Origin: Halichondria panicea
Lineage: Eukaryota > Porifera > Demospongiae > Suberitida > Halichondriidae
Assembly: GCF_963675165.1 (NCBI RefSeq)
Contig: NC_087393.1
Span: 4,790,702 to 4,854,701 of the forward strand
Direction: 5' to 3'
DNA length: 64,000 nt
Position numbers and translations under genes: made by a program. Positions 19,844 to 61,800 of this stretch are shown piece after piece. Numbering within the stretch: the stretch's first letter is position 1; the number at the start of each line of letters is the position of its first letter. The notes under the pieces were generated by a model. The model saw only the letters and a list, made by a program, of their open reading frames with translations, was not told the DNA's origin and did no database searches.

Positions 19844-20758
19844 TACGGTGGCCCTGAGTGCTACTCTAGTTGGGAGTTGGCAGTTGCTAGTTGGGTGTTG
19901 GTAGTTGGCAGTTGGCAGTTAGCAGTTGGGAGTTGGCAGTTGGTAGTTGGGAGTTGGCAGTTGGGAGTTCGTGACCTTTAAACTTTGTAACGAACTAATG
20001 CCAGGAATTATTCTGTTTCTCTAAGCCTTCATTGATGGGGGCAAGCCCTACCTAATGTACATTGTATAGTGGACACACGTTAGCTGTCTGAGGCCAGCAA
20101 AGACTACATCTTCTACACCAGTTAGCAAATGTTGTATATATAGATCTTTGCACTGCCTCTAATCGTTTAACCATAACTTTAAATGGCCTCAATAGAATTA
20201 AAAGTGCCATGCAAAACCTGTTTCTATATTGCCCCCCCCCCTCCCCACTGCATGGGATCCGGGAATATAGGTGCATGGGGATTAGACTTGAAATTACCTC
20301 CCTACCTAGATGTGTACATATAAGATTAATATTGCCGTCTTAGGCCAGCTAGATATCTATTGGTGTCAGTATCATAATTTTAACTTACATAAAAGCCGGC
20401 TAATGTTGAAAGGTTACGAACTGCCAACTACCAACTCCCAACTACCAACTCCCAACTGCCAACTCCCAACTACCAACTCCCAACTGCCAACTGCCAACTC
20501 CCAACTCCCAACTCCCAACTGCCAACTGCCAACTACGCGTTTGAACTATCAATCAGCAACTGCGAACTACCAACTACGCATTTGAACTATCTTAGTAGCA
20601 ACTGCGAACTACCAACTACGCATTTGAACTATCTTAGTAGCAACTGCGAACTACCAACTACGCATTTGAACTATCAAGTAGCAACTGCGAACTATCAACT
20701 AGGCATTTGAACTATCAAGTATGAACTATCAACTAGAGTAGCACTCAGGGCCACCGTA
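19844..20758. mobile_element. Foldback-type transposon with heptamer arrays (unit 1)
   Basis: Perfect 29-bp terminal inverted repeats (19844-19872 and 20730-20758, beginning TACGGTGGCCCTGAGTGCTA) enclose subterminal arrays: a left array of AGTTGGC/AGTTGGG/AGTTGGT heptamers (about 19866-19970), its reverse complement on the right (about 20418-20532), then about four 41-bp repeats containing ACTACGCATTTGAACTATC (about 20533-20700). The middle has no coding capacity. Unit 2 carries the empty site near 28408. Flanking GAGATC on the left and AGAGATC on the right may be the target duplication. Confidence 0.8.
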
Positions 20759-23549: not shown

Positions 23550-26350
23550 TTACTTTAATACCTGATGTTCGGACACTTGATCAGGACCAGGGAAGGGAGT
23601 GCCGTCTCTGGAATACGATTGTGGAGAGAAGACACCACTTACCTATATATATAACCAAAAGAATAACCTCTATATACTTTTCAGACCATGCAGACCCGCA
23701 TGAACTGATGACTATGTATATATAATGGTTACACGCTTGCATGCATGTAAATGTTTTAAATGTGAGTTTCTTAGAGCCAATAATTATATGATAATTATAT
23801 GCATCGTATATATATTACCTCGATGTGGTGGTCTCTCTGAGACGGTTTAATCCCTTGCGTGTCAGGAAAATCTCTGTGTTTATAGCCATGTACTAGCAAA
23901 GATACTGCATGTGTGTTGTTGCTGCGTTGGGCTTTATGAAGCATTGTCCTTTCGTTCGAATCGGTGTATATTTTATTAATGTCAACTCCATTTTTTTCCA
24001 TTAAATCTAGCACTACTCTAAACGTATCCAACTCGTTACGATCATATGGAATACAGTTCATGAGATAGTGAAAAGGTGTGTGATCCTCTTTATCCAGAAC
24101 TTGCATAGCAGGAAGGATATCGTGTTGAACTTGTTTACATGCGTCAATAACGATGTCAAGGAACCATGACCACATACCCTCTCTACAAGCAATGTGGAGA
24201 AGAGTGTTACTTCGGTCACCCAGATTAAACTTGATTCCTGTCAGATTGGATAGAACATTGTGCTGAACACACAGGTTAAACAGTAGCTTGACTGCTGCAC
24301 GGTGTTGCATTTCGAAAGCTAATTCGATGGGAGTTTTTCCATTACCGTTTTTTGCACGCAGAATATAACTAATTTGCTGAGAATCTCCCTTGACGAAAAG
24401 ACCTATCTTGTTTTGATTGACTCTAATCCCACTCTGAATAGCACTATGAACTGGCAAATCTTCATCCTTATCCGTTTTAACAAGTTGTTCGGGAGGCATC
24501 TTAGAAATCATTTTCTGCATTCTTTCAAAAGTGAAAGATGTACTGCTCCTAGCTAGGCCATGAGTTGCAGTTCCTCGGAATTTCTTATCAAGTTTGTCAA
24601 TTGAGTCTTGATACGTGTACCTCACATTGAGGGGATTATCATCCACCAGATCATCATAGTTTTCTTTTAGCCACGTCTCCCACTTTAGACCCTGTATATA
24701 ATTATATATATACATAATATACTATAGAGCACTGTATATAGTGATATATCCTCGACAGTTGACATCTCACAACCATGACGTGCTGTTGTACAAATTATGC
24801 AAACAACATGCAGTACATATAATATATATAATTATATATATATATATGCATGGGCGTTTCTAGAAAGTGCACAAAGCAGAGGGGTGCTGAAGTTTAACCT
24901 TGCGCAAGGTATGACCTCACATTGATTAGGTTGCGCCTTTTGTGGAATTCTATTTAACGTGACTTTGTAACTAGAGCACTGAATTTGTGCTAACCCTGGA
25001 CTATTTCACGTCTCACAACCAAGCAGGTAACGATACGATACGTACATGAACATGGAAGAGCTGCAATTACCTAAACATTGTAATGCAACTAACCTACTCA
25101 CACAGTCTACAATAATTATACTTATGTTACCATACCTCTGATGCTTTCTCGTATTTCCAGAGATCTGATAGGAGAAACTCGTGCTCAGACAGGCGAACAA
25201 CATTTTCGACTTTATCCTGCATTAATAGGATCTTGCATAAAGCTTAAGTGTATGGTACTAGTGAATGATGTGTATATAGATCTACATGTACTTAAGTTGA
25301 ACAACTTTCCATAGATATGTTTAAACATCAGGCCCGGATCTAGGGGGTGGATTTCAGGGGTCGCAACCCCCCAACACTAACAAAAACTAGCTTAACCTAC
25401 ACTCGTGTTGCTTGTGGCTATGAGCAATGTGGTTAACAGGGCTGCATCCAGGATTTTGGATCAGGGGGGGCGAATTGGGCAATTTAAAAATGTAGGAGGG
25501 GTGAAGTCATCAGAATTATAGCAGTACAAATGAATCTGCCAGATCCTAGGGGGGGGGGGCGAATTACCCCCCTCGCCCCCCCTCAATGAAGGCCTGATTA
25601 ACTTACAAGCTGTGAACTACTATCTGTTGACATGAGTACAAGTCCAGGACACACTAAGTATATTATAGTAAATACACATTCATTCCACACATGTATTATG
25701 TATATACATGACAAGGCACCTAGCTGTAGTAGACAGTTAGATTTGTAAGTATATTTTGTGCACGTTTACTATGATGTCAATTTCAATTAAGAGGCATGGT
25801 CAAATTTTGCGCGCGCTTTTGTTTTATAACCCCCCTATAAATTTTTGCCTGAGCCCCCGAATATCCTCATAATTAGACTCACTGATATACCCTCGACAGC
25901 AACACAACCATGACACGCTGTTGTACAAATTATGCGGCAAAAAACATGCAGTACACATGCACATATATAATTATATATATATACGTTCCTCGCACAAGGT
26001 ATGACCATTAATTAGGTTGCGCCTTTTGTGGAATTCTGTTTAACGTGACTTATAGTAATAACAGTTAAGAGCCAGGGTTGCAAGTTTGTGTATAATTATA
26101 GAATAGAAATTACCTTTTCTAATAACACTCTGTGAGGGAAAGCAAAACATGGGGAGAGGCATCATCATAAAATATTCGTAAATAGTGTGCACGAAAGTAA
26201 CCCTAATAAAAATGCACACTGTATATACGAAGTACAAACCTCTTCACTCTGACTCAGAGTCTGAGTCTCACTTGGGATGGTAGAGCTAGCCTGTGATGTT
26301 TGGTTCTGGTCCTGATCATCAAGCACCGGAGATATCGATGGTGTGGCCAT
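23550..26350 (-). CDS. Ankyrin-repeat protein 1 of a local family
   Basis: Predicted exons right to left are 26350 to about 26240 (MATPSISPVLDDQDQNQTSQ...SEE), about 25218-25138 (DKVENVVRLSEHEFLLSDLW...), about 24692-23817 (the main exon, starting GLKWETWLKENYDDLV) and about 23637-23550 (VSGVFSPQSYSRDGTPFPGP...). All internal borders are phase 0 GT-AG. ATG 26348-26350 is preferred over an upstream ATG because paralogue 3 keeps only this Met. The main exon has ankyrin-like units (GKTPIELAFEMQHRAAVKLL, SNTLLHIACREGMWSWFLDI, HTPFHYLMNC, RTMLHKAQRSNNTHAVSLLV). No other domain is recognised, and the Ser/Gln-rich ends look disordered. The main exon ends earlier than in paralogue 2, at HHIE. Function unknown; the frame is open. 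Confidence 0.75.
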
Positions 26351-29526: not shown

Positions 29527-32486
29527 TTAAATTGTCTCATCACTACTCCTCACCAACGGTTGCCCTTCAGACACTTGAGTACCACTATGGAAGGGAGAAG
29601 TGCTGGAATATGACGGTGCAGAGCTCGAGGAGACATCACTTGTCTATATAACCAAAGGAATAACCTCTTTCAATTCAGACCAGACCCGCATGCATGCATA
29701 GCTGTTTTATATGCATGTCGAACTATATATAGTTTCTGCTCGATAATATGGTATATCTATCAGTATTAACATAATTATACGTATACATGCACCTTATCAT
29801 GCAACCTATATAATTGATATTTACGCGTGCATGATGGAAATGTATTAGAAGTGACTTTCTTAATCAGAGCCAATAATGATACATGAATTATATATATATT
29901 ATACCTCAGATAGTACTAGACTGGTCACCCTCTTGTCCATGTCTTCGAATTCGATGTGGTGGACTCTCTGAGATGGTTTAGTCCCTTGCTTGTCTGGAAC
30001 ATCTTTGTGATTATACTCGACTAGCAAAGATACTGCATGTGTGCTGTTGCTGCGTTGGGCTTTATGAAGCATTGTCCTTCTGTTCTTGTCTGTGTATATT
30101 TTATTGATGTCAACTTCATTTTGTTTCAGTAAATCTAGCACTGCTCTAAATGTATCCAACTCGTTAGAATCATCTGGAATACAGTTCATGAGATAGTGAA
30201 AAGGTGTGTGATCCTCTTCATCCAGAACTTGTATAGCAGGAAGGATATCGTGGTTACATGCGCCAATAACGATGTCAAGGAACCATGACCACATACCCTC
30301 TCTACAAGCAATGTGGAGAAGAGTGTTACTTCGGTCACCCAGATTAAAATTGATTCCTGTCAGATTGGATAGGACATTGTGCTGAACACACAGGTTAAAC
30401 AGTAGCTTGACTGCTGCACGGTGTTGCATTTCGAAAGCTAATTCGATGGGAGTTTTTCCTTTACCGTTTTTTGCACGCAGAATATAACTAATTTGCTGAG
30501 AATCTCCCTTGACGAAAAGACCTATCTTGTTTTGATCGACTCTAATCCCACTCTGAATAGCACTATGAACTGGCAAATCTTCATCCTTATCTGTTTTAAC
30601 AAGTTGTTCGGGAGGCATCTTAGAAATTATTTTCTTCATGTTTTCAAAAGTGAAAGATGTACTACTCCTAGCTAGGCCATGAGTTGCAGTTCCTCGGAAT
30701 TTCTTATCAAGTTTGTCAATTGAGTCTTGATACGTGTACCTCACATTGAGGGGATTATCATCCACCAGATCATCATAGTTTTCTTTTAGCCACGTCTCCC
30801 ACTTTAGACCCTGTATATAATTATATATATATACATAATATACTATAGAGCACTGTATATAGTGATATATCCTCGACAGTTGACATCTCACAACCATGAC
30901 GTGCTGTTGTACAAATTATGCAAACAACATGCAGTACATATAATATATATAATTATATATATATATATGCATGGGCGTTTCTAGAAAGTGCACAAAGCAG
31001 AGGGGTGCTGAAGTTTAACCTTGCGCAAGGTATGACCTCACATTGATTAGGTTGCGCCTTTTGTGGAATTCTATTTAACGTGACTTTGTAACTAGAGCAC
31101 TGAATTTGTGCTAACCCTGGACTATTTCACGTCTCACAACCAAGCAGGTAACGATACGATACGTACATGAACATGGAAGAGCTGCAATTACCTAAACATT
31201 GTAATGCAACTAACCTACTCACACAGTCTACAATATACTTATGTTACCATATACCTCTGATGCTTTCTCGTATTTCCAGAGATCTGATAGGAGAAACTCG
31301 TGCTCAGACAGGCGAACAACATTTTTGACTTTATCCTGCATTAATAGGATCTTGCATAAAGCTTAAGTGTATGGTACTAGTGAATGATGTGTAGATCTAT
31401 ATGTACTTAAGTTGAACAACTTTCCATAGATATGTTTAAACATCAGGCCCGGATCTAGGGGGTGGATTTCAGGGGTTGCAACCCCCCAAACACACAAAAA
31501 CTAGCTCAACCTACACTCGTGTTGCTTGTGGCTATGAGCAATGTGGTTAACAGGGCTGCATCCAGGATTTTGGATCAGGGGGGGCGAATTGGGCAATTTA
31601 AAAATGTAGGAGGGGCGAAGTCATCAGAATTATAGCAGTACAAATGAATCTGCCAGATCCTAGGGGGGGGGGGGCGAACTGTGCCCGGGGGGGGGGCGAA
31701 TTACCCCCTCGCCCCCCCTCAATGAAGGCCTGGTTAACTTACAAGCTGTGAACTACTATCTGTTGACATGAGTACAAGTCCAGGACACACTAAGTATATT
31801 ATAGTAAATACACATTCATTCCACACATGTATTATGTATATACATGACAAGGCACCTAGCTGTAGTAGACAGTTAGATTTGTAAGTATATTTTGTGCACG
31901 TTTACTATGATGTCAATTTCAATTAAGGGGCATGGTCAAATTTTGCGCGCGCTTTTGTTTTATAACCCCCCTATAAATTTTTGCCTGAATCCGCCCCCGA
32001 ATATCCTCATAATTAGACTCACTGATATACCCTCGACAGCTACACAACCATGACACGCTGTTGTACAAATTATGCGGCAAAAAACATGCAGTACACATGC
32101 ACATATATATATATATATACGTTCCTCGCACAAGGTATGACCATTAATTAGGTTGCGCCTTTTGCGGAATTCTGTTTAACGTGACTTATAGTAATAACAG
32201 TTAAGAGCCAGGGTTGCAAGTTTGTGTATAATTATAGAATAGAAATTACCTTTTCTAATAACACTCTGTGAGGGAAAGCAAAACATGGGGAGAGGCATCA
32301 TCATAAAATATTCGTAAATAGTGTGCACGAAAGTAACCCTAATAAAAATGCACACTGTATATACGAAGTACAAACCTCTTCACTCTGACTCAGAGTCTGA
32401 GTCTCACTTGGGATGGTAGAGCTAGCCTGTGATGTTTGGTTCTGGTCCTGATCATCAAGTACCGGAGATATCGATGGTGTGGCCAT
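29527..32486 (-). CDS. Ankyrin-repeat protein 2 of a local family
   Basis: About 404 residues in four exons with the structure of paralogue 1: about 32486-32376 (MATPSISPVLDDQDQNQTSQ), an 81-nt exon near 31260-31345 (KNVVRLSEHEFLLSDLWKYE), the main exon about 30813-29909, and 29527 to about 29640 (TSDVSSSSAPSYSSTSPFHS... to SSDETI and stop). The ankyrin units are the same, with few substitutions. The main exon extends further than in paralogue 1 and ends in EFEDMDKRVTSLVLSE before the donor at the GAG/GTATAA border. The frame is intact and the splice phases agree, so the gene is probably functional or very recently duplicated. Function unknown. Confidence 0.78.
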
Positions 32487-36999: not shown

Positions 37000-37875
37000 T
37001 ACGGTGGCCCTGAGTGCTACTCTAGTTGGGAGTTGGCAGTTGCTAGTTGGGTGTTGGTAGTTGGCAGTTGGTAGTTGGCAGTTAGCAGTTGGGAGTTGGC
37101 AGTTGGTAGTTGGGAGTTGGCAGTTGGGAGTTCGTGACCTTTAAACTTTGTAACGAACTAATGCCAGGAATTATTCTGTTTCTCTAAGCCTTCATTGATG
37201 GGGGCAAGCCCTACCTAATGTACATTGTATAGTGGACACACGTTAGTGCTGTCTGAGGCCAGCAAAGACTACATCTTCTACACCAGTTAGCAAATGTTGT
37301 ATATATAGATCTTTGCACTGCCTCTAATCGTTTAACCATAACTTTAAATGGCCTCAATAGAATTAAAAGAGCCATGCAAAACCTGTTTCTATATTGCCCC
37401 CCCCCCCTCCCTACTGCATGGGATCCGGGAATATAGGTGCATGGGGATTAGACTTGAAATTACCTCCCTACCTAGATGTGTACATATAAGATTAATATTG
37501 CCGTCTTAGGCCAGCTAGATATCTATTGGTGTCAGTATCATAATTTTAACTTACATAAAAGCCGGCTAATGTTGAAAGGTTACGAACTGCCAACTACCAA
37601 CTCCCAACTACCAACTCCCAACTGCCAACTCCCAACTACCAACTCCCAACTGCCAACTGCCAACTCCCAACTCCCAACTGCCAACTGCCAACTACGCGTT
37701 TAAACTATCAATCAGCAACTGCGAACTACCAACTACGCATTTGAACTATCTTAGTAGCAACTGCGAACTACCAACTACGCATTTGAACTATCAAGTAGCA
37801 ACTGCGAACTATCAACTAGGCATTTGAACTATCAAGTATGAACTATCAACTAGAGTAGCACTCAGGGCCACCGTA
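37000..37875. mobile_element. Foldback-type transposon with heptamer arrays (unit 3)
   Basis: The same 29-bp ends as 19844-20758. The left heptamer array is longer and the right-hand 41-bp array is one repeat shorter than in unit 1, so arrays changed length after duplication. Confidence 0.78.
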
Positions 37876-40919: not shown

Positions 40920-43900
40920 TTACTTCACCTGCTGTTTGTGCTTGGGCTCTGCCACGGGAATAGAAGCAGGGAAGCTAGGAGAGCCGCCTCTGGAATATGA
41001 CTGTGTAGAGGCCGAGGAGGTATCACTTACCTATAACCAAAGGAATGACCTCTTTTAATGACGTTTTCAGATCAGACCAGCATGCATAGCTGTTTTATAT
41101 GCATGTCGAACTATAATTTCTGCTCGATAATTAACTGATAAGAATGATAGTGGTATTTTAGCTCAGCATTATAATATACGTATACACTTATCATGCAACC
41201 TATAATATAGTAATTATAATTGTTACGTGTGCATGCATGGAAATATTATACCTCTGATAGTACTCGACTGGAAGTCTTCTTGCCGACGTTGTCGATGTGG
41301 TGGACTGTCTGAGACGGTGTAGTCCCTTGCTTGCCTGGAACATCGTCGTGTTGACACTCGGATGGTGATCGACTGGAAGCCTTTTTGCCAACATTGTCAA
41401 TGTGGTGGACTCTCTGATACGGTTTAATCCCTTGCTTGTCTGGAACATCTTCATGTTCATACTCTACTAGCAAAGATACTGCATTTGTGTTGTTGCTGCG
41501 TTGGGCTTTATGAAGCATTGTCCTTCTGTTCGAGTCAGTGTATATTTTATTGATGTCAACTTTTTTTTGTTTCAGTAAATCTAACACTGCTCTAAACGTA
41601 TCCAACTCGTCAGAATCATATGGAATACAGTTCATGAGATAGTGAAAAGGTGTGCAATCTTCTTTATCCAGAACTTGCATAGCAGGAAGGATATCGTGTT
41701 GAACTTGATTACCGGTACATGCGTCAATAATAATTTTAAGAAACCATGGCCACATACCCTCTTTGCAAGCAATGTGGAGAAGGGTGTTACTTTGATCAAG
41801 CTTGAAAAAATTACTATGTCTTCGGAGGTTAATTCCTGTTAGACTGGATAGGACATTATGCTCAACACACAGATCAAACAGTAGTTTAACTGCTGTACGA
41901 TGATGCGTTTCGAAAGCTAATTCGATGGGAGTTTTTCCATTAATGTTTTTTGCACGCAGAATTTTCTTAATTTGCTGACGATCTCCTTGGACGAAAAGAC
42001 CTATTTTTTTTTGATCGACCCTAGTCCCACTCTGAATAGCACTATGAACTGGCAAATCTTTATCTTTATCCGTTTTAACAAGCTGTTTAAGAGGCATTTT
42101 CAAACTAATTTTCTCCATGATTTCAAAAGTGAAAGATGTACTGCTCCTAGCTAGGCCATGAGTTGCAGTTCCTCCGAACTTCTTATCACGTTTGTCAATT
42201 GCGTCTAGATACCCCTTATTGAGGGGTTCATCAGCCACCAGATCATCATAGTATTCTTTTAGCCACGGCTCCCACTGTAAACCCTGCATGCACATGCATA
42301 CAACATAATAATTATACTAGAGTGTAGTGGTATATACCCTCGACCATGCAGGGGCGTACGCAGGAATTCCAGGAAGGGGGAGCTTAGTTAGAGGGTGTAT
42401 AGTGTGTTTTCCACCAGAACCACCTACGGCGCATCTAGCGTCGAAATTTGTTGAGGTTTAACCAGAAGCCACACCTCCTAATCAATTAGTCATTGTCCAG
42501 GAAGTCAGGCTCACCTCTCCTTGTGAAATAGTGGTCCAGTGACAGTGCAGTACGCATGTGTAAGATCTCTTAGTTTAGCCACACCCTTTATTTGTGTAGC
42601 ACTGTTGTTAGCTAGCTAAAGAAGCTTACATAATACAGTGCTGCATTGAAGTATCAAGTTACTATAGCTAAGCTCTTGGGCATGCTGATGGTGCCAATCA
42701 TCTTTACCAGTACTGTATTGCATGCTCAAAAGTTGCACAGAGACGGTGGGACTCCTGTTAGTAATTTTGCAGAGGAAGGGGGCTCTAGCCCCCAAAGCCC
42801 TGCCCCTCCCTACGCCCCTGTCGACACTGTTGGCATCACACAACCATGACGTGCTGTTGTACAAATTATGCAAAAAAACATGCAGTATATATTATATGCA
42901 AGGGCGTTTCTAGAAAGTGCACGAAGCAGAGGGGTGTTGAAGTTTAAAAACAGTCCCTTGCGCAAGGTATGACCCCACATTAATTAGGTTGCGCCTTTTA
43001 GAATTGTGACATAACAAGAGCCAGCGTTGCAAGTGTATACTTTGCGTATATATATATATATAATTATAGAGCTGCATGTGCAGTAGCTACCCTATGCATG
43101 CAGTACTGATAGCTTCACAGTTGTCTGCTATAGGCCCAGTGGTGCTCAAGCCCACCGGCATATAGACACGCCATGCACTCGTATGAACATTGAAGCATGG
43201 TAGCAACTATATAACACAGGCTAGCCTCAATTCCAGACCGCGAAGAGAAAGGTGATAAGTACGGTTGCACGTTGGATGAGCCGCTCAAATACCAAAAGGA
43301 AACAAGAACAAAGGAAAGCCCAGATACAAAACGTCATTAAGATCTCCATTGAAAAACAGGACCACTTATAAAAGTTAACTCTCCATAATTAGTCTTGTGT
43401 ATACCATATATGCTCGATCAGAGGCCGCACTCAAATAGTAGCCTCCCTTGCTAGCAAAATGAAACATTAGTAGCCGCTCTCAAATAAAATAGCCTCAGTG
43501 AACTTTGACTCTAGCATTTCTGCACGTGGCAGCCAAAAAAATCATTACTAGCAACTAGCTATAGTTACATGTACGTAGCTACAAGTAGCAGCTTGTTAGT
43601 GCTTTACAAAGACTTTCTCCTAGCAGAGTTCAAGTTTATGCAGGTGAAAACAACTTTTGATTACAAACTAAATTATCTGGAGCTAATAAACACCGCTCTT
43701 GAACAGTGGCCTCTCTTGAATTGTAGCCTCCTCTTCCAGCAAAATGGTAGCCGCGGCTCCTGATCAAGCATATCTCTCGTGTACTTTCAGTTGATTATCT
43801 ATGTTAGATAACATAATTATGGTCATAGATAACATAGAACATAGATCTAATTGGTGTTACATTTATAATGCAGTGGAAAAAGTTTACAAACAAGTGCAGT

Positions 43901-55878: not shown

Positions 55879-58800
55879 ATGAGTTGGTTTGATTCCAGCT
55901 TCTCCTTGGCTAAGAACGCCTTTAGCCAGGCTCAAAAGTCCATAGACAAAGTACTAGACATCAAAGAACATAAAGCAGGGCAAGAGAGTCTTGAAGAACC
56001 TCGTAAGTTAGAAATAAACACTGACGTACGTGACACCAATATACGTTACATCGTGTATTCCCGTTCAGATGCACTCCCAAGTTCTGTGGAAACGGCGAAT
56101 GCTAAGAGTTCGAAATCACCATTTGAGACTAAATCTTTTTCGAACCCTCACACACCCCATCGCACTGATACACAAAACTCCACCCCACCCCCCACACACA
56201 CTACATTTGATTCAACTTGGGGCCAGAGTGACTCCGTGTGGGGAACTCCCTTCACCTCACCACCCTCTAAGGGTTCAGGGTCCAAAGACTCGAGTTCAAA
56301 GGTCACCCTACCGGCAAGCAGTCAGGGGTCATCAACGGTCAAGATCACACCCACTGGTCATCGGACAAAGCCGAGACGATCCAAGAGCCATGCTACCTCC
56401 ACACCCATTGGGACAGGGGGTGGGGTGGGAGGGGGCGACGTTCAAGGTTTAACCCCTGTGAAACCCATCGATGAGGGGTTATCGCCAACCACTGACAAGT
56501 CTACAGACTCTAATATTATGATCGCATCAGACGACGGTAATGAAAAGAACGAACATTTAATAGATCCCAGTGATAAAAACACAGAGCTAATTGCACCATC
56601 CACTACACCTAAAGAGGCTTCAACAGACTCACGACAAAACGATAGTTCATTGGATGGAGATACACAATTGGACATTTCTAAGCGTACAGTTACAGCGCTG
56701 CCCCTCCATGACTCACAGCCGTCTGCCCAATCAAATTCTATTGGTGGTGGTTCGGGAGAAGTGAAAGTTGCCGACAAAGAAAATAAAGAAGAACCTACTG
56801 CCTCTGTAAATGAGAACTTACCTAGTACGTGTATGGATGCATCTGTACCGATGGTAAAAGACGCAATTATTGATAAATCTGTTTCAAAAGACACTAATAA
56901 AGTTGAAGCTGATACTTCTGACCCAGTGACTGGTAATGGTGGACTGCATGATGTCCAACTATCTGTACCTAAAGAAGTGGCTGACCCACTCCAGAGCCAT
57001 GACATCATTGACACAGTTTCTGAAGGAGATGCTACAGCAGGTACCCTCACTGGTGACTCTAATGAAGGCTTGCAAACACTGACAAAAGTAAGTTATAATT
57101 GTGAAGTGAATGTGGTACAAATTAAATAAATGGCGTACTGTGCATTCAATATTATGTTTTAGCTAGTGTGTCCATGTATCTACATATTGGTGTAGTAGTA
57201 AGTGTAAGTGTTCCGAATATGTGATAAAACTTCTTTTATTTCTTTATCTCTCCGATGTCCCTCACGTAGTCGTATGCGTTATCCTCTGACATGTGTTGGG
57301 TCTTTCCCTTTAGGGCTGATTTCATCTTCTTCAATAGCTTGCTTCCAGGCACGGTTTTACTGTGTGCGGAGAGACCATTCATTTAAATGTGTGCATAACC
57401 GTTCTACAATTTGTGGTCTAGAATGGAATGTGATTGGCTATACCGTACATGTATAGCGGGGTTATTTTCGTATGGTGAACATTTTTATATTTTTCATATC
57501 AGTAGAGCATCTATGAATATTAAAACTGCTCTGGTACAATAGATTCAACGTAGTAACTAACTATCCTGAGCTGTACGATTAAACGAAAATTTGCACCAAC
57601 GAAAATTACCTGCTATTATAATTATGATATATAATTATGGTAGAACCTTGAGCTAAATTAATGTGCTCACCTTTGACCCCCGTGGTCCACTATCTCATAG
57701 CCAGATGAATCTTTCTTTGTCTCCCCTAAGCCCCTCACATAATCGTACGAGTCATCCTCTGAAATCTCTGTACTTTTCTTCTTCAATAGCTTGAATAGTT
57801 TACTGTCTTGAAGCTTACCTCCGCTGGGTGTACTCCCACTCTGATAGTCGTTTATTACATAATCGTTTTCATCTTCTATGGAATCATTTTCAACCATGCC
57901 TTTACCCTTCCCTTTTGACTTGGATTTCTTTTTATCTTTCGATTTTTCGCCCTCTTTCCACGGCCCAGGAAGGTCGTAATCTTTCTCTGTGTCTTTCGTT
58001 CCCATTAGTAACTTTGTGTAGTTACCGTCGGCTGGCACTGCTTCTATGCTGACTGGGCACTTTTTGTCACCCTTTTTCACTCCTCTGAAATCCCTAACAT
58101 AATCGTATTCGTCATCTTTTGACTTTCCCTTTGATTTGAGTTTCTTCTTATCTCCTTCCCTGCATAAAGATATCTCATTTATATGCCACATAGATTTCAT
58201 ATTATGTACCAACCACACTGACACACGTAATACAAAAGCATAGCACTTATACCAGGCATATTTAACCCATTTGTGTAATCGTAATGCAAATATCTCCTTT
58301 GTAGTGCATACCACACTACATTCCACACTACATAGTCCCCTGGGGAAACCATCCACTTGCCCTGAGGCTCATTATAATGTTTATACATGACTGTACAATT
58401 GATGTATGCACTTTATATTCACTCACTTTTGACTTTCATCTTGCTTCGGTTTTATTGGATCATTGTAATCGTTGTTCTCGTAGTAGCTAGTGGGCTCCTC
58501 CGCAATCTTCACTTTCTTGGCTTTCTTTTTGTTTTTTGATTTCCCTTTACTTACAGGGCTTTTCAGTTTGTCTCCCTCCACTCCATGGTAGTCGTTATTC
58601 TCGTAATAGCCAGGGTCTGCCTCAACGCTCGTAGCCGTAGCCGTAGCCGTAGCTGTAAATTCTTTGAGTATCGCGTCAATTGAGCTCCTACCCTTTGCCG
58701 AAGCTTCGGGGACGTCGTAATCTTTCTCTTTCTCTTTTGTTCCCATTACTAGCTTTGTATAGTTACCGGCAACTTCTGGTGCAATACTGACTGGGCGTTT

Positions 58801-61800
58801 TTTGTCAGCTCCTACTCCACCCACACCTTTCAGTTTCGGTGTCCCATCATAATCGTTATTTTCATACAGGCCAGTGTCATCATCTTCTACGAATGCTGGC
58901 TGACGCTTGACTTTTCCTTTCAACAGCTTGAATTTCTTGCCTTTTGTTTTCTCACTGCTTGCAGCTGTCTGATCTTTCCACGGCCCAGGAAGGTCGTAAT
59001 CTCTCTCTGTGTCTTTCGTTCCCATTAGTAACTTTGTGTAGTTACCGTCGACCACTTCTCGTGGCACTGCTGCTATGCTGACTGGGCGCTTTTTGTCACC
59101 TCTTATTGCTCCTCTGCAGTCTCTCACATAATGGTAGTCATCATATTTTGATATTCCCTTTTTGAGTTTCTTTGATTGGCCTCCTCTATAAAGAAATGGA
59201 TACGTATAAGTACTGTACTTTAATTAACGTTAACTGCGAAGTGTTGAACTCACTTTTGACCTTCGTGGTCCACTATCTCATAGCCAGATGAATCTTTCTT
59301 TGTCTCCCCTAATCCCCTCACATAATCGTACGAATCATCCTCTGAAGCCTTTCTTTTCGGTTTTGATTTCTTCTTCCCCTTTGGTCCAGGTAGGTCAATC
59401 TGACAATAATCGTCATTCAGGTCGTCTGTTGGACCAATGGCCAGATCCTTATCTCCGAGTACATGTACAGTCACTGTATCGTACTGGTGTGAGGAAGTGT
59501 CTTCTACTTCTTGTCTTCCTTTCAGAAGTGTGTCAGAGATCTTTTGAATCCACGCCATTTTGTACTGTAAGCTAGTATATATATACAGCTGCTCTATTAA
59601 TGCACGTTCAAGTTATTAGTAACTCAATCTGCTTAATGCTTCTCATGCGGTTACGTACGTCTCTGTAGACTATAAGATAACCAGTTTTAACTGATTCTTA
59701 GCATTTGTGACAAAATGTACGTACTTCTTAATTAATTGGAAGCTGTGGGTAATTTGTCCAGCTGTGGGTAATTTGTCCATCCATCATGCAGGAATGTCTA
59801 TTATGCCTGGAATCATCTCCCTCTAGTTTGATAGTTTGAAAGTATTGCATTTCTCTGCATAATATCTAATCACATGCTTAGCGGGCTGAATAATTGCTAG
59901 ACGTACTTGAACAGAGAACTTGCTAGTCCATGTAATTATGTGTGTGTGGGATCATAATTATAGAGTAGAAGAGGGATTGGAAACGGAAGTGATTCACGTG
60001 ATGTTTTACAATGAAGTCTATGTAGTGGCTCTGGGACCATCCGTGTATCTCCTCATAACTCCCGCAAAAGCCCGGGAAACTTATTGTGTCCAAAGCATAC
60101 ATCATGTCTTGAATCCTTGAAAACATGCCATCTCTATATATTGTCTATCCTTTCGATCAGACACACTTGAGTCTGTGTAGCTGAAATTAATACTGTATAC
60201 CAATTAGGCCACAACAAGAGGTAGTTCTGTTTCTGGTCAGGTTGCTTGCCTGATTACGTGAGGCCAAGAGGGACAACAGCAACTGAGCCACACATATTTG
60301 CAGTGTCATCACTTTTTTATTTTTCACAGTTTGTCTTTAAAAACAGTTTACAACACAATAATACCATCTAAATAACATACAGGAAGAGGTATTTTAGGCT
60401 TTGGAAACCAGAACATTGAACTGAGAATTGTCTCTATATCAAACACCTATATAATTATGTCCTTGCACTAGCTTGAGCCATTGTACGTGCTTGCTCTGTA
60501 TCAAAGCAAAAAAGCAAAATGAGACCACATAATTATTGTGTTAGCATAATAACATCTTTCATTGCAAAATACAAGATAGTATATACAAGATACAAAACAC
60601 TAGCTTACTGAATATTGAAGTGTTGTAGGTGGTGCTGTACATGTAATTATTGCAACACCCACTCAACCAAAAGTGAGTGGGTGTGGTTTGCGCATGCGCA
60701 TTAGGTGTATTGCTGAAAAAACAGCCCAGTGAAATATTGAGCGGCGGATGGACCAGAAACAGAACTACCTCTTGTTGTGGCCTTAAGTTGAAAGTTATAG
60801 TGTCGGCTATAATTACACATTATGTGTGGGGGTGGGTGATAGATGTTCGTGATGTCACTATTCATGGCTAGCAAGTAATTATGTACGTACTCTTACAAGT
60901 TGCCCTCCCATAATTTAAAGGGCTGCATATGAATTGTAATAGGGCTATAAGCATGTTCATCTGTAACTAGCTGAATGATTCAAGAAAACTATAGTCAGCT
61001 TCAAAATAAGAATTGATTTTCTGCAAACAAGGTCTTAAATATAATTTACATGTTTGAAATGTCCTTCTTTACCGCTCCTTTTTTACTATGTGCGTGTATA
61101 TACAAATACAGTTCGTGTACACGTGACAATTGAATTATATTTCTCTCGCGGCCGCTATAGGAGTCTGCCCGTCTGTCCGAGTTGCTTGAGGCTAGAGAGA
61201 GCAAGATGATGGACATGAGTCGACAGCTAGTAGCCCTCACAGAGGAGAACCAAACCCTCCAGTCACAACTAGCCGAGGCACGGGAGGCGGGGCTAACAGA
61301 CATTGACGAATTGAGGGCAGAGTTCACTCAGAGAATTGGCACATCAGACAAGAAACTGCAAGCTGTCAGTAAGGTGGGTATAGGCAGTAAATGTTTGCTC
61401 TAGATAGTGTTTGTACGAACAAACATTCTTTATATGTTTTCTTGTTGTGAGGTGTACTGTATTGTTTGTGTATGGTAGTGGTTGGAGTCAAGTGTAACTA
61501 ACTAACTGTGTGTACACAATCTGTAGGAGAGGGACAGTCTCCGTAAGCAGCTGCAAGCCATTCAGAATGAGCAGTCTCAACAGTAAGCCCTATGCATGCA
61601 CTCCACGTACGTATAGTCATGCATTGTATATAGTGTGTACTTTGCGTAGTTGTAGTGTTGGTCGAACTTTATTGGTTGTTGTGATAGCTCCTGGAGTTCA
61701 TTGGAGTCCATAACCAAGAACATTCAATTTCACGATATGTTTTTTGTAGCTCTCAGAGCTCTATTTGATGATGTGATTTGATTTTGACGTGCCCCGGTCA

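Follow-up and report, generated by a model that had tools for sequence, protein, structure and literature searches.

The stretch analysed here (the window) comprises 64,000 nucleotides (nt) of contig NC_087393.1 of the sponge Halichondria panicea, and our subject is a tyrosine-rich gene lying antisense within an intron of TMF1. An earlier reading of the window from its letters alone (the original prediction) had described a 558-residue, four-exon gene at this position, and the gene holds up with its coordinates unchanged: the exon chain on the minus strand (57236-59558) encodes 558 residues and a stop codon (1677 nt). Exon 1 (59254-59558) begins with an ATG at 59558, where positions -3 and +4 are A and G, respectively, and stays open through a terminal YDYVR...YEIV unit to a GT donor. 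Intron 1 (59186-59253, 68 nt) separates it from exon 2 (58427-59185, 759 nt), where the motifs run in the order YHYVR, NYTKL, YDLP, YENNDY, NYTKL, YDVP, YENNDY and YENNDY. Beyond intron 2 (58160-58426, 267 nt) lies exon 3 (57671-58159, 489 nt), with YDYVR, NYTKL, YDLP, YDYVR and YEIV, and intron 3 (57360-57670, 311 nt) leads to exon 4 (57236-57359), which holds a final YDYVR unit and the stop codon, overlapped by an AATAAA at 57240-57235. All three introns have GT-AG borders and are in phase 2, and exons 2 and 3 are symmetric (phase 2-2).

The host intron spans 57088-61160 on the plus strand, its donor and acceptor being read from the sequence, with the flanking TMF1 exons ending at 57087 and restarting at 61161. 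The downstream coiled-coil exons of the host gene, joined by eye, match PF12329 (TMF_DNA_bd, E 2.6e-18), whilst the open frame upstream, taken by itself, had no Pfam match. The nested position is not remarkable by itself, since some sponges have many such genes; the available part of PMC10282587 tabulates 3358 of them in Amphimedon queenslandica. The first TMF1 open frame contains a probable in-frame intron of 66 nt (GTAAGT...TTCAG, 56003-56068, plus strand), read by eye. Moreover, the intron that houses the tyrosine-rich gene also carries a perfect 33-nt inverted repeat (60206-60238 and 60751-60783, 512 nt apart), which looks like a small terminal-inverted-repeat element.

Across the four exons 101, 252, 162 and 40 full codons are open and joined by consistent phase-2 splice sites, while the remaining two same-strand frames of the chain contain 36 and 42 stops. 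Comparison of the internal copies with one another, pooled over six of nine copy pairs (some overlapping), gave a dN/dS of 0.32 in frame, from 26.2 differences over 86.3 synonymous sites and 38.8 over 339.7 nonsynonymous sites, versus 1.54 and 0.69 in the shifted frames (Fisher p 7e-5). The three pairs outside this pool were the second unit of exon 2 with exon 3, exon 1 with exon 4, and the first with the third YENN copy. Codon usage offers modest support for coding, with a score of -4.1 against a synonymous-recoding null of mean -25.0 and standard deviation 7.4 (500 draws), under a model trained on just three genes of the same genome. A chance open frame was rejected on the phase-consistent exon chain together with the frame-specific constraint.

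The predicted protein contains 31 tyrosines, 17.2% lysine, and 112 basic and 101 acidic residues; its hydropathy is low and its charge/hydropathy composition is disorder-like. No Pfam family matched the 558 residues at E up to 1, with SH3, PH, PTB, Serine_rich and CAS_C all absent, which bears out the earlier statement that no folded domain is visible in the protein and no N-terminal SH3, PH or PTB domain is seen. A search of the PDB at E up to 10 likewise returned no relative. Hydropathy windows over the 558 residues revealed neither a membrane span (highest 19-residue mean 0.72, starting at residue 271) nor a hydrophobic N-terminal signal peptide. Basic amphipathic stretches include residues 474-487 and 523-536; the N-terminus is amphipathic and helix-like.

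Set between lysine-rich linkers are five copies of Y[D/H]YVR, three each of NYTKL, YDLP/YDVP and YENNDY, and two of YEIV. These are the motifs of the original prediction, and its description of a protein made almost entirely of them was overstated: together with YDTV they account for 82 of the 558 residues, the repeat units (with bounds drawn by hand) accounting for 297. Motif counts were compared with 2000 shuffles of the protein's own composition. Both YDxP (3 versus a shuffle mean of 0.14) and YDxV (5 versus 0.21) lay above all 2000 shuffles. The latter, the commonest enriched adaptor-type motif, corresponds to Nck-type sites, which the first reading had not named as such. Tyrosines followed by a hydrophobic residue at +3 (YxxPhi) were also enriched (13 versus 5.3, p 0.0015), the excess of YxxP in general was marginal (4 versus 1.32, p 0.04), and acidic residues were more frequent than in shuffles both before (p 0.0035) and after (p 0.007) tyrosine.

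The repeats bear the marks of growth by internal duplication, as had been claimed from the near-identical endings of exons 1 and 3. The 98 nt at 59249-59346 (minus strand as for all blocks here; family D2), the close of exon 1 together with its splice donor, are 95% identical to the end of exon 3 (57666-57763), with 29 of 31 residues identical. A 78-nt NYTKL...YDLP block in exon 2 (58973-59050, family D1) is 99% identical to the reference copy in exon 3 (57953-58030), which itself shares 76% identity with a third copy (58694-58771), and a YxYVR...PVSI block in exon 2 (59062-59161, family D3) is 83% identical to 58033-58132 in exon 3. That a 99% identical D1 block adjoins an 83% identical D3 block suggests recent local copying within the gene. 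Moreover, exons 2 and 3, being symmetric, are easily duplicated with the frame intact.

Relatives of the gene were sought in its own genome, in prokaryote and viral contigs and in the PDB, by searches that favour close relatives and from which a distant low-complexity relative could escape. In its own genome the 558-residue query, at E up to 10, hit nothing but the four exons of the gene itself (three candidates scored), a 58-residue repeat unit was found in three places only, all within the gene, and a 123-residue piece matched nowhere else at E up to 0.001. The YENNDY codon pattern occurs three times in the 131 Mb genome, all three in this gene, and its reversed control not at all. Searches of prokaryote and viral contigs with exon 2 confirmed no relative among 25 and 7 pattern matches, respectively, and searches of open-licence papers showed no sponge protein of this kind. 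Because relatives were sought only in these three places, a new class is not established. Furthermore, the proposal of a new class of multi-SH2 docking protein is not borne out, and YxxP-repeat proteins without SH3 have already been published from choanoflagellates, according to the available part of PMC5043372.

Judging by domain matches, the phosphotyrosine readers and writers to be expected are present in the genome, namely CRK, GRB2 and NCK adaptors and SH2-kinases. It contains 71 SH2 exon matches and at least 156 matches to PF07714 (129 of 1749 candidates scored), a family that includes Ser/Thr kinases; at least three open frames on contig C2 (417, 407 and 406 residues) match both SH2 and the PF07714 kinase domain. 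Two SH2 exons found GRB2 and Crk-like proteins first among single-SH2 chains of the PDB, the best whole-chain E-values for the same two exons belonging to two-SH2 SHP2 chains. SH3 pieces flank these exons in the SH3-SH2-SH3 and SH2-SH3-SH3 orders of GRB2 and CRK, four of the five passing the Pfam SH3 cut-off and one half-domain failing it. A third SH2 matched NCK2 and NCK1 best. The genome also encodes a complete Cas/BCAR1-type protein, a single 730-residue open frame (contig C9, minus frame from 4230 of its locus) with SH3, six YDxP sites, Serine_rich and CAS_C, and has 14 matches to PF02174. Among 15 papain-family loci inspected, two exons have Ser in place of the catalytic Cys and silicatein alpha as their best PDB match. 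Such silicatein-like exons mark the genome as a demosponge's, in keeping with the early-branching animal host of the original prediction. We also noted a dense cluster of PF07714 matches, mostly open frames of ~470-1090 residues, at 1.70-1.94 Mb of contig C10, and SH2 exon pairs on contigs C7 and C1, 23-25 kb apart with identical or nearly identical translations, which are either recent duplications or assembly duplicates.

On balance, we think it probable that the protein is intrinsically disordered, resides in the cytoplasm and serves as a phosphotyrosine docking scaffold for Nck-, Crk- and Grb2-type adaptors. If expressed, the scaffold would be phosphorylated by tyrosine kinases at its many tyrosines in acidic context, whereupon YDxV would recruit NCK, YDxP would recruit CRK and YENN would recruit GRB2, YxN being the Grb2 motif. 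As its flexible chain carries each kind of site more than once, it could gather and cross-link SH2-SH3 adaptors and signal onward to actin and to Ras/Rap regulators. Access to the membrane might come from basic amphipathic stretches such as the two named above together with the helix-like N-terminus, or else from binding partners. In the available parts of the sources, YDxV is given as a Nck motif (PMC3507883; also a title cited in PMC4238058), YxxP is the Crk motif and the ligands of a choanoflagellate Crk SH2 domain include pYDVP peptides of a YxxP-repeat protein (PMC5043372), and multivalent phosphotyrosine tails form clusters together with Nck and N-WASP (PMC4238058).

Several observations weigh against this reading. 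The original prediction had paired Crk-type with Grb2-type sites, and while the YDxP half of that pairing stands, the three YxN sites are not clearly above what composition alone yields (0.90 in shuffles, p 0.05). Immunoreceptor tyrosine-based inhibitory motifs (ITIMs) show no enrichment (2 versus 1.03, p 0.27). Moreover, the motif copies arose by duplication, and the enrichment therefore amounts to few independent events. The dN/dS estimate is biased low because the pairs were selected for matching proteins, and the codon-usage score was exceeded by one null draw (-2.6) and by one antisense frame (3.2) that contains 17 stops. Lastly, the rules that link motif to adaptor come from vertebrate and choanoflagellate work.

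The main rival to a cytoplasmic scaffold is that the frame covers only the intracellular portion of a membrane-spanning adaptor or receptor, similar to LAT or to the choanoflagellate YxxP-repeat membrane proteins, and that the 5′ exon encoding its membrane span was missed. The targeting domain that the frame lacks could likewise lie on an upstream exon. An acceptor-like AG (CTTACAG) does stand directly before the ATG with the frame open through it (open frame 59250-59612), and the five YxxP-repeat proteins in Figure 6 of PMC5043372, as far as the available part of that paper goes, are all membrane proteins. However, the ATG at 59558 has a strong start context, the intron that such an exon requires would be of phase 0 where the other introns are of phase 2, and minus-strand frames of at least 40 residues between the ATG and the next exon of TMF1, read by eye, offer no Tyr/Lys-rich continuation. 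The most hydrophobic stretch noticed upstream of the ATG falls inside an inverted-repeat element. We regard a missed membrane exon as unlikely. It is similarly improbable, in our view, that this is a Lys/Tyr-rich protein outside phosphotyrosine signalling, be it structural, adhesive or nuclear, in which tyrosines cross-link or stick and basic runs act as nuclear signals. Such a protein would suit the high lysine content, with runs such as KKKSKSKGKGKG, and the repetitive, single-copy character of the gene. Against this, the tyrosine motifs, mostly constant at +1 to +3 (between units, one YHYVR replaces YDYVR), are less variable than the lysine-rich linkers, YDxP and YDxV exceed every shuffle, and there is no hydrophobic N-terminal signal peptide.

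Far less credible are the two remaining alternatives. A relative of Cas/BCAR1 or of Gab/IRS/FRS/DOK stripped of its domains would account for the YDxP sites, common to this protein and to the genome's Cas with its six; yet a complete Cas exists elsewhere in the genome and, at E up to 10, was not among the matches of the full-length query, and the tyrosine-rich protein has no PTB, PH or SH3. We consider such a descent very improbable. Membership of the Cas, Gab or IRS families was rejected, given the absent Pfam domains and the real Cas elsewhere; with a separate, complete Cas in the same genome, the tyrosine-rich protein is not Cas. That the locus is a pseudogene or a set of chance open frames rather than a coding gene in use agrees with the modest codon bias, but is hard to reconcile with four long open exons joined in phase 2, with the stops that fill both other same-strand frames, or with constraint confined to the coding frame, and we give it very little weight.

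Elsewhere in the window, three similar long open frames on the minus strand form a local family (23795-24721, 29899-30915 and 41246-42316), of which the first and last match Pfam ankyrin repeats (E 1.4e-11 and 2.5e-12, respectively). In addition, two near-identical open frames on the plus strand (20310-20582 and 37476-37700), ~17 kb apart, end in a low-complexity NSQLPTPN-type repeat.

Returning to the proposed docking scaffold, we tentatively suggest a more specific history, although we think it rather less likely to be right than wrong as a whole: an independent, Cas/LAT-like invention, in which a docking protein of the sponge lineage arose with no folded or targeting domain at its origin, beside a conserved Cas, grew by exon-end and block duplication within the TMF1 intron, and came to combine Nck-, Crk- and Grb2-type sites, on a single disordered chain, with a basic amphipathic hold on the membrane. 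Should the scaffold itself function as proposed, an early-branching animal would possess, in addition to a typical Cas, another docking scaffold for multiple adaptors, built of short motifs alone. Such a gene would also be a direct case of phosphotyrosine networks gaining hubs through the copying of motifs and not the shuffling of folded domains.

Known docking systems share parts of this design, and if the proposed role is right the sponge protein would function much as Cas and the PH/PTB docking proteins do, without their domains. Gab, IRS, DOK and Dof have folded domains, PH and PTB among them, or are anchored by lipid. FRS2 has a myristoylation site and a PTB domain, as stated in the available part of PMC7260276. 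The sponge protein resembles Gab, IRS, FRS2, DOK and Dof in its proposed multi-site phosphotyrosine docking with Grb2- and Crk-type sites, and differs from the Gab, IRS, DOK and FRS proteins in having no PH or PTB among its Pfam matches, of which there were none. With LAT/NTAL and the nephrin tail it would have in common a disordered tail bearing several phosphotyrosine sites. In LAT these sites bind Grb2, and a LAT-type adaptor has a short extracellular part and a membrane span ahead of its tyrosine tail. In nephrin they bind Nck (PMC4238058, available part). Both are membrane-anchored, whereas the predicted 558 residues contain no span. An immunoreceptor tyrosine-based activation motif (ITAM) comprises YxxL/I twice, 6-12 residues apart; reading the protein sequence revealed none, as the tyrosine motif after NYTKL is YDLP or YDVP, neither of which has L/I at +3. 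The choanoflagellate YxxP-repeat proteins (PTSG_05573 and others), compared here by description only from the available part of PMC5043372, are alike in carrying YxxP repeats with neither SH3 nor any other Cas-like domain and in belonging to organisms with a conserved CRK, and unlike in that they span the membrane and the sponge frame does not. The Cas family (p130Cas/BCAR1, NEDD9 and EFS) has 6-25 YxxP sites per species, again in the available part of PMC5043372, a range above the four (three of them YDxP) of the sponge protein. The latter differs from Cas in having no SH3, Serine_rich or CAS_C and in adding YDxV, YENN and YEIV sites, and is like it in that multiple Crk-type YDxP sites lie in a region with no recognised fold.

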